Positions 2,043 through 14,847 of a stretch of DNA of 34,251 nucleotides are shown piece after piece. The position numbers were made by a program, and so were the translations under genes. The stretch spans positions 1-34,251 of IMG/VR virus record IMGVR_UViG_3300043567_000334. One strand, 5' to 3'. Numbering within the stretch: position 1 is the first letter of the stretch; every line of letters starts with the position of its first letter. The stretch comes from a virus. Under the pieces are notes generated by a model. It did not search any database, was not told the DNA's origin, and saw nothing but the letters and a program-made list of their open reading frames with translations.

Positions 2043-3235
2043 GAGATTACCAAACTGAGATATCGCACAAAGCGAATATTATACTCAAAGAAAAGCGAAT
2101 AGTTTACTTAATGATGCAAGTTCGTACAGGCAAAACTTTGACTGCTTTAGAAACCGCTAAACTATACGGAGCTAACAACGTTCTATTCTTAACGAAAAAG
2201 AAAGCTATAAGCTCGATTGAAAGTGATTATACTAACTTTGGGTATACGTTTAATCTAACGGTTACAAACGATGAGCAATTAGCTAATATCGAAGGGAACT
2301 TTGATTTAATAATCCATGACGAACACCATAGGTTCGGAGCGTTTCCAAAGCCAAGTAAACGAGTGAAAGAATTTAAACTTAAGTATTCCCGTGTGCCAAT
2401 GATATTTTTAAGCGGTACACCTGCATCTGAAAGTTATTCTCAAATGTACCATCAGTTTTGGATTAGTTCTTATTCACCATTTAAAGACGTTAATTTTTAC
2501 AAGTGGTCGAAAACATTCGTGAATGTGAAGCAGAAAAACATGGGCTATGCAATGATTAACGACTATTCAGATGCAAAAATTGCATTGATTGACGAAGTAA
2601 TACAACCGTATATTATTAAGTTTACTCAAGAACAAAGCGGATTTGAATCAAAAGTAAAAGAACACGTGATCTATTACCCTACATTATGCAGAAACTTAAT
2701 TGAACGTTTAGAGAAAGACTTAATTATTGAGGGCAAAGAAAACGTAATATTAGCAGATTCGGGAGCAAAATTAATGCAGAAAGTTCACCAATTAGAGAAT
2801 GGAACTATTAAGTTTGAGTCGGGCAAATCAATGATTCTTAACACTCGCAAAGCTGAATTTATTAAAGATTACTTTGATGGCAAAAAGTTAGCGATATTTT
2901 ACTATTACGTTGAAGAGTTAGAATTATTAAAGTTAGTTTTCCCTAACTCTACAAGCGATTTAAACGAGTTTAACACATCGAACAAGCACTACATTGGACA
3001 ACAATACAGTTCTGCGTTAGGGGTCAATTTAAGTAATGCTCATTGCTTAGTATTTTACAACTTCGGTTTCTCAGGAACAAATTTCATTCAGTCAATTGAC
3101 AGGCTAACGACTAAAGAGCGAAAAGAAAACGATGTATTTTTTATTTTTGGCAAAGATTCGTTGACCGAAAAGATTTATAAAACAGTTTCACAAAAGAAAA
3201 ACTTTACACTTAAACAATATGTTAAAAATAACTAA
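2030..3235 (+). CDS. SF2 DEAD/DEAH-family helicase
   Basis: A 401-aa superfamily 2 helicase or translocase, acting on DNA during replication or recombination. Visible motifs: an N-terminal Q-like motif (RDYQ), Walker A VRTGKT (about residues 31-36), motif II DEHH (97-100), motif III SGTPA (128-132), and motif VI in QSIDRL near 354-359 with the expected arginine R358. The length fits compact phage SNF2/DEAH helicases without accessory domains. It overlaps the primase-helicase gene at its 5' end by 13 nt and the methyltransferase gene at its 3' end by 17 nt, so it belongs to the replication operon. The exact substrate (fork, branched DNA or RNA) cannot be told from sequence. Confidence 0.9.
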   Translation: MPILRDYQTEISHKANIILKEKRIVYLMMQVRTGKTLTALETAKLYGANNVLFLTKKKAISSIESDYTNFGYTFNLTVTNDEQLANIEGNFDLIIHDEHHRFGAFPKPSKRVKEFKLKYSRVPMIFLSGTPASESYSQMYHQFWISSYSPFKDVNFYKWSKTFVNVKQKNMGYAMINDYSDAKIALIDEVIQPYIIKFTQEQSGFESKVKEHVIYYPTLCRNLIERLEKDLIIEGKENVILADSGAKLMQKVHQLENGTIKFESGKSMILNTRKAEFIKDYFDGKKLAIFYYYVEELELLKLVFPNSTSDLNEFNTSNKHYIGQQYSSALGVNLSNAHCLVFYNFGFSGTNFIQSIDRLTTKERKENDVFFIFGKDSLTEKIYKTVSQKKNFTLKQYVKNN

Positions 3236-3830
3236 CGAAGACAACATGGAGCTTATGGCTCGTTACCCTGATAACTATTTTGATTTAGCAATAGTTGACC
3301 CTCCTTATGGGATTGATATTGCAAAATGGGATAGTATTGATTTAAAACCAAGTGAAGAATATTTTAAAGAATTATTTAGAGTCAGTAAAAAGCAAATTAT
3401 TTGGGGTGGTAATTACTTTAACCTTCCTCACTCTGAAGGTTGGATTTGTTGGGACAAAACATTTAAGTACAACCAAAAATTAGCAGTTGGTCATTTTGAA
3501 TTAGCTTGGTCAAATTTAGATATTAAACATTCATTTATAAGATTTACAAGTTGTGGAAATTTTCAAGGATTTGAAAACCCAAAAGCAAATTATGAGAAGA
3601 AAAAATCATTTCACCCAACTTCAAAACCTATTGAAATTTATAAATTTTGTTTAAAAAATTACGCAAAAGAAAACGATAAAATACTCGACACGCATTTAGG
3701 CTCAGGAAGTATTGCGATAGCTTGTCACGATTACGGATTTGATTTGACAGCTTGTGAATTAGATAAAGAGTATTTCGATAAAGCAATGCAACGTATTAAC
3801 AACCATACAGCACAACAAAAACTATTCTAA
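3219..3830 (+). CDS. Site-specific DNA methyltransferase (beta type, DPPY)
   Basis: A 203-aa amino-methyltransferase that would transfer methyl groups from S-adenosylmethionine to adenine N6 or cytosine N4. The catalytic motif DPPY is at residues 27-30, followed by a short target-recognition stretch, the FHPTSKP segment (131-137), and the SAM-binding motif D-T-H-L-G-S-G-S at 157-164. Motif IV before motif I defines the beta order. No cognate restriction enzyme is obvious. The next gene, a VRR-NUC nuclease, starts inside this stop codon (TAATG), so the two are translationally coupled. Likely roles are protecting phage DNA from host restriction or marking phage DNA. The recognition sequence cannot be predicted here. 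Confidence 0.92.
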   Translation: MLKITNEDNMELMARYPDNYFDLAIVDPPYGIDIAKWDSIDLKPSEEYFKELFRVSKKQIIWGGNYFNLPHSEGWICWDKTFKYNQKLAVGHFELAWSNLDIKHSFIRFTSCGNFQGFENPKANYEKKKSFHPTSKPIEIYKFCLKNYAKENDKILDTHLGSGSIAIACHDYGFDLTACELDKEYFDKAMQRINNHTAQQKLF

Positions 3831-7963: not shown

Positions 7964-8232
7964 TTAACTGGGCTAAAGCTCGTAAGTTAGACAACCCTGA
8001 CAACAAGTTTCAACAGTTAGCTAAGGTCATGGAAGAGGTTGGAGAGTTATCATCTGCAATACTAAAGCGAGATATTTCAGAAACGATTGACGCGCTTGGA
8101 GATACTTACATCACACTTGTGATATTAGCAAATCAAATGGGTTACTCGTTAGAAGATTGTGCAAAGAGAGCCTTTAAAGTTATTGAATACCGAAAAGGTA
8201 AAACCGAAAACGGAACGTTTATCAAAGAGTAA
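7948..8232 (+). CDS. mazG: MazG-like nucleotide pyrophosphohydrolase
   Basis: A 94-aa all-alpha NTP pyrophosphatase of the MazG superfamily. The metal-binding pattern E-E-V-G-E-L appears near residues 29-34 and D-A-L-G-D-T near 48-53, as in the E-E-x-x-E...D/E-x-x-D signature. Substrates may be (d)NTPs or alarmones such as (p)ppGpp, as proposed for other phage MazG proteins. It overlaps the 3' end of the DUF3310-like gene by 16 nt, and its stop overlaps the next ATG. Confidence 0.85.
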   Translation: MEREIINWAKARKLDNPDNKFQQLAKVMEEVGELSSAILKRDISETIDALGDTYITLVILANQMGYSLEDCAKRAFKVIEYRKGKTENGTFIKE

Positions 8233-8396
8233 TGAACAGAGAAATTGCATTTATATGTCCTAATGGTATTGTTAAGTTTTATCGTGCTGATGGAATGAGA
8301 AACTCAGAACACCCTGATAGTTTTTATAGACCTGAAGACATCGAAAAACTAAAAAAAGATTTTATAGTTAAATACGCAGAAGATTTATGGAAGTAA
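8232..8396 (+). CDS. Hypothetical small protein (54 aa)
   Basis: The last protein gene of the early operon, started by a TAATG overlap with the MazG-like gene. It contains the pattern N-G-I-V-K-F-Y-R-A-D-G and a helical C-terminus; no known family. The short length is normal for this gene cluster. Confidence 0.6.
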   Translation: MNREIAFICPNGIVKFYRADGMRNSEHPDSFYRPEDIEKLKKDFIVKYAEDLWK

Positions 8397-8399
8397 TTA

Positions 8400-8561
8400 A
8401 AATTAAACGATAGTGTTGGTATGTGATTAAAGTGTTACTATGGCTAATGGACAAGTACCATAAATCTAAGTGCCTAAAACTTAGCATATCACGATACGGT
8501 CGTAACACGCCAACATTTAGTTTTTTTAAACCCTTGCATCAATTGGTGTAAGGGTTTTTTT
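8400..8561 (+). ncRNA. Candidate structured ncRNA (pseudoknot plus intrinsic terminator)
   Basis: The gene-free stretch between the early and late blocks folds into nested and crossing helices. Helix A pairs 8412-8420 with 8509-8517 (two G-U). Helix C pairs GTGTTAC 8432-8438 with GTAACAC 8502-8508, stacked on A. Hairpins 8439-8443/8458-8462 and CTAAGT 8466-8471/ACTTAG 8479-8484 lie inside C. GTGAT 8423-8427, bulged between A and C, can pair with ATCAC 8488-8492 inside the C loop, which is a pseudoknot. A terminator follows at once. Base pairing was found by eye; I recognise no Rfam family. It could be processed from the early transcript, as I see no good promoter of its own. Confidence 0.5.
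8528..8561 (+). terminator. Intrinsic terminator at end of early block
   Basis: Arms 8528-8540 and 8545-8557 form a 13-bp stem (two G-U pairs) with an AATT loop, followed by a T-run to 8561. It ends the early transcript and the candidate ncRNA. Confidence 0.85.
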
Positions 8562-8571
8562 GTTATCTTTA
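8543..8571 (+). promoter_or_regulatory. Probable promoter variant (TTG-N18-TATCTTTA) for the sigma factor gene
   Basis: TTG at 8543-8545 (in the terminator loop and right arm) and TATCTTTA at 8564-8571 are 18 nt apart. The -7 box deviates from TAnnTTTG only in the last base. The ATG of the sigma factor follows 5 nt after the box, so the transcript would be nearly leaderless; this makes the call uncertain. Confidence 0.5.
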
Positions 8572-8576
8572 ACCCC

Positions 8577-9056
8577 ATGAATCTAACAGAAATAGCGAAG
8601 CACCACGACGAATGGGTACGAATTGTTAAACGATTCGGAGCCAAGACAGATGCAGAAGACATAGTACAAGATATGTATCTAAGGTTTTACAAGTACGGCA
8701 AAGGTCAGGTAGTAACCAAGTCATTCATTTGGATAATGCTGCGTAACTCTTTTTATGACTCATGCAAGCGTAATGTTTCAACAGTAGACATCGACCTTCT
8801 GGTTGACTTATCAGAAGACCAAAACAACAAAACGTATGAAATAGAGTTATACTATCAGAGTGTTGAAGAACAAATAAAAACATGGGAGTGGTTCGACCAA
8901 CAACTATTCTTATTATATTTACGAAGCGGAAAAAGTATGCGAGAATTAGAAAAGGAAACTAAAATAAGTTTGACCTCTATTTTTCACACTATTAAAAAAT
9001 GCAAAAGAAAACTAAAGATATGGCAAAAAGATCAAAAGGGTTTGGAGATACAGTAG
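8577..9056 (+). CDS. Phage RNA polymerase sigma factor (sigma-70 regions 2 and 4)
   Basis: A 159-aa ECF-sized sigma factor. Region 2 is seen at about residues 10-65 with D-A-E-D-I-V-Q-D-M-Y-L-R-F, the core-binding and -10 recognition helix, and region 4 at about 105-148 ends in an HTH (S-M-R-E-L-E-K-E-T-K-I-S-L-T-S-I-F-H-T-I). It would redirect host RNA polymerase to late phage promoters. It is the first gene after the early terminator and heads the packaging/structural block, the position expected for a late regulator. The sequences of its target promoters are not evident; late genes lack the TAnnTTTG box upstream. Confidence 0.85.
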   Translation: MNLTEIAKHHDEWVRIVKRFGAKTDAEDIVQDMYLRFYKYGKGQVVTKSFIWIMLRNSFYDSCKRNVSTVDIDLLVDLSEDQNNKTYEIELYYQSVEEQIKTWEWFDQQLFLLYLRSGKSMRELEKETKISLTSIFHTIKKCKRKLKIWQKDQKGLEIQ

Positions 9057-13822: not shown

Positions 13823-14847
13823 TTAGAGCGCGATCACCTTATAAAATTAGTATTAATGAAGCAAGTCAAGTTAGTACAAAGATTGAATTGTTTATCAGTG
13901 CAACAACTTTCTCCGGTACACCACAATATACACTTGGTAAAGCAATTCCTGCATCAAATGCGCCAACAACTTACTACGACATTTCACCTTACATTCGTGA
14001 ATACTTTGATCATACTGCATATACTAACGTTACAAGTTTAACGGCTGCAGTTAGTTATACGTGTGTTGATAAACTTAATGTAAGGGTAAAGAGATACAAG
14101 ACTGTAGGAGTAACAGAAACATTAGTAGATACAACTGATTATATTGCAACGGATGGATACTCAGAGTTTGCCGATAGTGTTAATTATAACGGTGGAAATT
14201 ACTTGTTAGACCAAAAAAACTATTACTATCATAGCGGTTCAAATGCTGGGTTTATTATGCTTTACGCTGCAGCAAATGATAAAATAAGATGGACAAATGT
14301 AACCGATAGCATTGTTTATTTAAGCGCATCTTTAGCTTTAGGATTTTATTACGTACCACGTTGCTATAATTCAGAGTTTACAAAAGAATATAAAGTTGAG
14401 GTTATAAATAGTTCAAATGCAGTTCAAGCTACATGGACTTTTAAACCTGTTGAGGAATGTTTATACACGCCTGTTAAGGTTGACTTCATAAATAAACACG
14501 GAGCGTTTCAAAGGGAGTTTTTCTTTAAAGCATCGAACGATAACATTGAAGTAACAAACAAAGATTACAACTTAATGCAACCGTACAATTACAGTTTAAC
14601 AGGGGGGCAAAGAACAACGTACAATCAAAACGGAAAACAAAGTATAAAGGTCAATAGTGGATGGGTAGAGGAGGATTTTAAGGATAACTTAAAACAATTA
14701 ATGTTAAGTGAAAAAGTTCTGGTAGATGAAAAGCCTGCGATCCTTAAAACTAAATCAATTGAACTAAACAAGTCGCTTAATACTAAACAGATAAATTATA
14801 GTTTGGAGTTTGAGTTTGCTTATGACTTAATTAATAGCATTGTATAG
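13819..14847 (+). CDS. Bacteroidota phage tail structural protein
   Basis: A 342-aa, beta-rich, Thr/Ser/Tyr-rich protein. The N-terminal region carries I-R-A-R-S-P-Y and D-I-S-P-Y-I-R-E-Y, a pattern I associate with virion proteins of Bacteroidota siphophages. The C-terminal part ends in alternating strands (N-Y-S-L-E-F-E-F-A-Y). No signal peptide. Position directly before the 729-aa protein suggests a distal tail or baseplate subunit. Function is an inference. Confidence 0.6.
   Translation: MIRARSPYKISINEASQVSTKIELFISATTFSGTPQYTLGKAIPASNAPTTYYDISPYIREYFDHTAYTNVTSLTAAVSYTCVDKLNVRVKRYKTVGVTETLVDTTDYIATDGYSEFADSVNYNGGNYLLDQKNYYYHSGSNAGFIMLYAAANDKIRWTNVTDSIVYLSASLALGFYYVPRCYNSEFTKEYKVEVINSSNAVQATWTFKPVEECLYTPVKVDFINKHGAFQREFFFKASNDNIEVTNKDYNLMQPYNYSLTGGQRTTYNQNGKQSIKVNSGWVEEDFKDNLKQLMLSEKVLVDEKPAILKTKSIELNKSLNTKQINYSLEFEFAYDLINSIV

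Follow-up and report, generated by a model that had tools for sequence, protein, structure and literature searches.

The window is a 34,251-base virus record, with a terminase nearest to those of Nonlabens phages P12024L/S (55.6% identity). It contains a gene-free stretch that is bounded on one side by a 54-aa ORF (ORF call, 8232–8396, + strand), the last gene of the upstream unit, and on the other by a sigma-factor-like gene with a Sigma70_r2 domain (8577–9056, + strand; Pfam PF04542, 3.3e-06; PHROG sigma factor). An earlier note, made from the letters of this DNA, had placed a compact candidate non-coding RNA and a 13-bp terminator at 8400–8561, between two transcription units. The element and its setting are borne out, with limits redrawn to a structured RNA core of 106 nt at about 8412–8517 (+ strand; covariation in alignment A2, 130.6 bits in cmsearch with model R1) and an intrinsic terminator at 8528–8561 (+ strand). 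The latter is a perfect 13-bp hairpin (arms 8528–8540 and 8545–8557) followed by a T-run, with a folding z-score of -5.7, and is retained in relatives that lack the RNA. Just past the terminator (8562–8576), TATCTTTA lies six bases before the sigma ATG and is like a Bacteroidota -7 box; as read from its letters, it might yield a leaderless sigma mRNA.

The helices P1 to P4 and the pseudoknot that had been proposed are all present, together with a small hairpin P5, and all are formed on the + strand. The outer helix P1 (8414–8420 paired with 8509–8515) covaries, with four of its seven pairs changed on both sides among homologues. The inner helix P2, which pairs GTGTTAC (8432–8438) with GTAACAC (8502–8508), is paired in 100% of alignment cells and has two pairs changed on both sides. 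The pseudoknot is formed by GTGAT (8423–8427) and ATCAC (8488–8492), both strands of which covary, with compensatory changes in two other carriers, L084 and L299. A GGCT (8442–8445) that is identical in 9/9 distinct members precedes hairpin P3 (ATGG-ACAAGTA-CCAT, 8447–8461), whose 7-nt loop is near-invariant on a stem that varies across members. Hairpin P4 (CTAAGT-GCCTAAA-ACTTAG, 8466–8484) has an invariant loop, a C-G to G-C exchange at the stem base and a G-U pair in L024; in P5 (GAT-ACG-GTC, 8493–8501) two of three pairs are changed on both sides.

A search with the sigma protein returned 80 related phage loci, a handful of which have the same element in the same place at 96–99% identity, while most are without it. 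DNA-pattern scans covering 2.9 million viral contigs recovered the element in further phages, and two scans with independent motif sets, of which one omitted the P4 loop and the other the P3 loop, led to the same 16 contigs, so that the conservation of the loops is no artefact of the search. With an incomplete contig (L045/L302) these make 17 viral contigs, and with the window 18 records, comprising nine distinct sequences from at least six phage lineages. The carriers are the phages of the window's own type (W); L085, with a terminase 32–35% identical to those of an uncultured Caudoviricetes, a Maribacter phage and a Flavobacterium phage; L084, L089 and L088/L090, which bear cassette arrays, L084 having some genes in common with W; L227/L268/L282, identical over their shared stretch, on contigs of 88–169 kb; L300, which has a protein with 65% identity to Flavobacterium phages; and L299, which has a terminase similar to T4-like ones. 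Judged by these genes, the carriers would mostly be kin of phages of Flavobacteria and relatives, the hosts of L299 and L227 being uncertain.

The RNA family is uncatalogued. Rfam 15 has no family at the gathering threshold in the window, nor for the element in L299, L084, L089 and L090; relaxed thresholds gave only terminator-like, terminator-driven or chance matches to it, and no description of the family was found in the open-access literature. ARAGORN, run on the window and on 12 loci, predicted no tRNA or tmRNA at the element; the only one close by is the tRNA-Trp next to the element in L299. With the W sequence, blastn gave no match to the element in GenBank phages (50,697) or PLSDB plasmids, and a search of GenBank phages with the L299 copy did not find it; weak blastn matches in Polaribacter, Cellulophaga and Tenacibaculum concern the cassette end repeat only, and the model finds nothing there. 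Among Bacteroidota genomes, model R1 gave no match in 299 and in 395 genomes under stricter filters, and the motif pattern gave none in 395 and in 396; the genome sets overlap within about 1,500 genome searches overall, and the motif search is the better negative because the model search scores few candidates per genome. Matches of a 14-mer in bacterial genome contigs were all due to chance, in unrelated contexts. A second model match in the window (14071–14169, 24.5 bits), which lies within a coding gene, has no GGCU and contains broken P2 pairs, is taken to be due to chance.

The amount of perfect pairing, which had been singled out as unusual, turns out to lie within chance: the window's RNA alone folds with a z-score of -1.1, and 27 of 200 shuffled sequences fold equally well, so that the folding energy is no proof of an RNA. 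What exceeds chance is the covariation across homologues. Alignment A2 holds 9 distinct sequences in 106 columns, with 2 gap columns, both in L299, the most divergent member. The named structure including the pseudoknot has standard pairs in 283 of 287 cells (98.6%), and sliding the pair partners by 1–3 columns as a control lowers pairing to 29–48%. Both sides have changed in 13 of 32 pairs, pseudoknot included, against a mean of 5.8 in shuffled alignments, none of 500 of which reaches 13; as these controls take every sequence to be independent while one close group supplies four of the nine, the counts overstate the number of events. Every helix contains at least one doubly changed pair. The stem of P3, for example, reads ATGG/CCAT, GTAG/CTAC or CTAG/CTAG, and the pseudoknot reads GTGAT/ATCAC in W, GTGGT/ACCAC in L084 and GGGGT/ACCCC in L299, L227 being the exception with two pseudoknot pairs broken. 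Conservation and covariation in related phages, the absence of which had been named beforehand as refuting the candidate, are thus both found. Wobble pairs on the + strand occupy 20 G-U cells versus 2 A-C cells, which identifies it as the structured strand. The compensatory changes between groups show selection on the fold, and even with the counts overstated, the agreement among L299, L300, L084/L085 and W is hard to explain otherwise. On this comparative evidence, it is near certain that the element is a real structured RNA. Within the W group the RNA copies differ at 0–6 of 106 nt, while the sigma genes differ at 42–70 of about 480 nt and at 17–57% of fourfold sites; purifying selection and recent transfer would both produce so slow a change, and recent transfer could partly account for it.

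About half of the positions are invariant among the nine members, many of them in loops, among these GGCU, the core ACAAGU of the P3 loop and the P4 loop GCCUAAA. The GGC of GGCU may contact the GCC of the P4 loop; both sides are invariant. Such conservation, combined with an H-type pseudoknot made from P2 and an inner helix, would also suit a small ribozyme, self-cleaving or of another activity, whose nested pseudoknot would loosely recall HDV-type ribozymes in topology. HDV-like ribozymes hold their catalytic C in a joining strand at the place where, in the present family, P5 abuts P2 in 9/9 members and leaves no such strand; as no Rfam ribozyme family matches either, even at relaxed thresholds, we regard a catalytic RNA as improbable.

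The surroundings of the RNA differ from carrier to carrier. In W it stands between the upstream unit and the terminator, and there it is probably made as the 3' part of the early transcript, as the earlier note had supposed; the 120 nt before it contain no TAnnTTTG promoter. The L227 copy closes a rightward operon that faces leftward genes, the L300 copy comes after an endolysin-like gene and before a hairpin with a T-rich tail, and the L299 copy begins 2 nt past a tRNA-Trp, with an attC-like site right behind it. The L085 copy has a TAnnTTTG promoter-like box about 31 nt upstream with no gene in between, and a small gene begins about 16 nt downstream, for which the RNA may have a leader role. 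L084, L089 and L090 have the RNA flanked by attC-like boxes within small-ORF arrays. Upstream and downstream genes both vary, and no neighbour gene is constant across the carriers.

These positions bear on the main rival explanation, in which the element acts in cis in a 3' untranslated region, its tight pseudoknotted fold blocking 3'-to-5' exonucleases and so stabilising the upstream phage mRNA or tRNA. The copies in W, L227 and L300, each just before a terminator and behind a co-directional gene, and the copy after the tRNA in L299 are where such an element would be expected; yet a plain exonuclease block needs no invariant hairpin loops, the L085 copy sits behind its own promoter-like sequence rather than a gene, the upstream genes are unrelated and most relatives do without the RNA. 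We therefore consider this explanation unlikely, if still worth keeping in mind.

Presence of the RNA is patchy. Among 69 sigma-bearing related loci it occurs in 8 and is absent from 61, of which 38 retain the terminator. To place the W-type RNA on a tree of the sigma genes takes 5 changes, of which well-supported branches force at least 4; recombination between phages could inflate this count. The proposal that the RNA controls an early-late switch is rejected on this pattern: the sigma gene is mostly found without it, the other members of the family occur in unrelated settings, where the element has no sigma gene beside it, and complementarity between the RNA and the genome of its phage is not out of the ordinary. 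The patchy presence also bears on a ligand- or protein-sensing, riboswitch-like leader that would control the terminator before the sigma gene. The W copy does stand directly before a terminator and a same-strand gene, the loops are highly conserved and a small gene is close downstream in L085, but the terminator occurs without the RNA in those 38 loci, no alternative pairing with a terminator arm is seen by eye, the constant downstream gene expected of a riboswitch is missing, and in L227 the downstream operon is convergent, so that the RNA there is no leader of a downstream gene. There is accordingly little to recommend a sensing leader.

In some relatives without the RNA, its place is taken by another putative small RNA: in L022 and L023 about 100–150 nt upstream of the sigma gene (5001), in L057 at about 3220–3330 and in L058 at about 2975–3085. 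Its parts are a promoter-like box (TAnnTTTG), a hairpin of the form ATCG...CGATAA around GCCAGTA/GGCAGTA, and another hairpin followed by a T-run. The spot upstream of the sigma gene thus looks like an exchange site for small RNA genes. In L013, L015–L018, L020, L026 and others there is only the promoter-like TATATTTGCAT and at once the terminator, so that the transcript would be very short.

Movement of the RNA is seen most directly in the array-bearing phages. L089 and L090 have 172 bp in common at 100% identity, and L084 has 175–189 bp in common with both at 97–99%, all between unrelated flanks, and these otherwise unrelated contigs share nothing beyond this unit. The unit, which runs from ATAACGG to GCTAACG(G), has moved recently between contigs. 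Its end hairpin GTTAGCAAATCGTTTTAATGTTTGCTAAC has a similar form in cultured phages, namely in Polaribacter phage Danklef_1 (L358:910-1085), where the two arms are about 150 bases apart with mostly coding DNA between them, and in Cellulophaga phage phi39:1 (L357:905-970), where two such hairpins are next to each other. Flavobacteria-type phages bear attC-like arrays of small gene cassettes at L084:9760-9948, L089:6866-7121, L090:60-3000 and L299:4462-4514. The element might then be a DNA recombination site, its hairpins forming a single-stranded integron-type attC rather than an RNA, as the mobility of the unit and the place of its outer stem between attC-like boxes in L084, L089 and L090 would allow. 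W, L085, L227 and L300, however, have no attC-like R''/R' boxes flanking the element, invariant loops are no feature of attC sites, and the wobble pairs favour the top strand whereas attC recombination uses the bottom strand; this explanation is very improbable.

With no partner gene, and with a longest complementarity to the own phage genome of 10 nt against a random mean of 11.3, which is nothing above chance for an antisense RNA, regulation of the phage's own genome by base pairing is unlikely, and these findings point to an RNA that recognises a conserved host factor by its fold. We see an even chance that the element is an accessory, freestanding small RNA of Bacteroidota phages that acts in trans, via its three-dimensional structure, on a host factor in host take-over or counter-defence. 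In W the RNA would form the 3' end of the early transcript, ending at the terminator, and in other phages it would come from its own promoter-like sequence or follow a tRNA. It would accumulate as a free species of about 110–150 nt, in which the core of P1, P2 and pseudoknot would bring the invariant loops ACAAGU and GCCUAAA together; the folded RNA could then act in trans on a conserved host component, and this action may, as a guess, help take-over of the host or counter its defence. In a bolder form of this proposal, which is less likely than not, the family would represent a novel class of mobile RNA with a pseudoknot and a regulatory or inhibitory role, exchanged as a 170–190-bp unit, partly as a protein-less integron-type cassette, and disabling a host system by its tertiary fold.

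The invariant loops point to a specific partner, the fold lends itself to experiment, and the natural presence and absence among close phages makes the effect of the RNA directly testable. To our knowledge, there are few reports of small structured phage RNAs with strong covariation, and next to none for Bacteroidota phages. The transfer of so small a unit, which in some phages sits within attC-like arrays, suggests that RNA genes as well as ORFs travel in phage cassettes.

attC-site arrays are already on record for phages, a Polaribacter phage among them (PMC9892861). Such arrays without integrase (CALINs; PMC9892861) have a counterpart in the Flavobacteria-type phages whose attC-like arrays house some members of the RNA family, but the published cassettes are described as ORFs with attC sites, whereas here a structured RNA is part of the unit, and the copy in the window is outside any such array. 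Anti-CRISPR RNAs and other anti-defence RNAs of phages would be similar in action should the guess of counter-defence hold, a likeness of idea only, as the window's RNA shows neither a repeat-like sequence nor a target. With HDV-like ribozymes it shares a compact, nested pseudoknot topology, but it has an additional enclosing helix and an additional hairpin, and neither the joining strand with the catalytic C nor an Rfam match. GOLLD is often found near tRNA genes. The large ornate RNAs GOLLD and ROOL, partly phage-borne and of known structure (PMC12286853), measure several hundred nt, compared with about 106 nt for the window's RNA, and have no sequence or Rfam match to it, but both they and the present family are carried by phages in a patchy manner and combine a conserved fold with a lack of coding potential.
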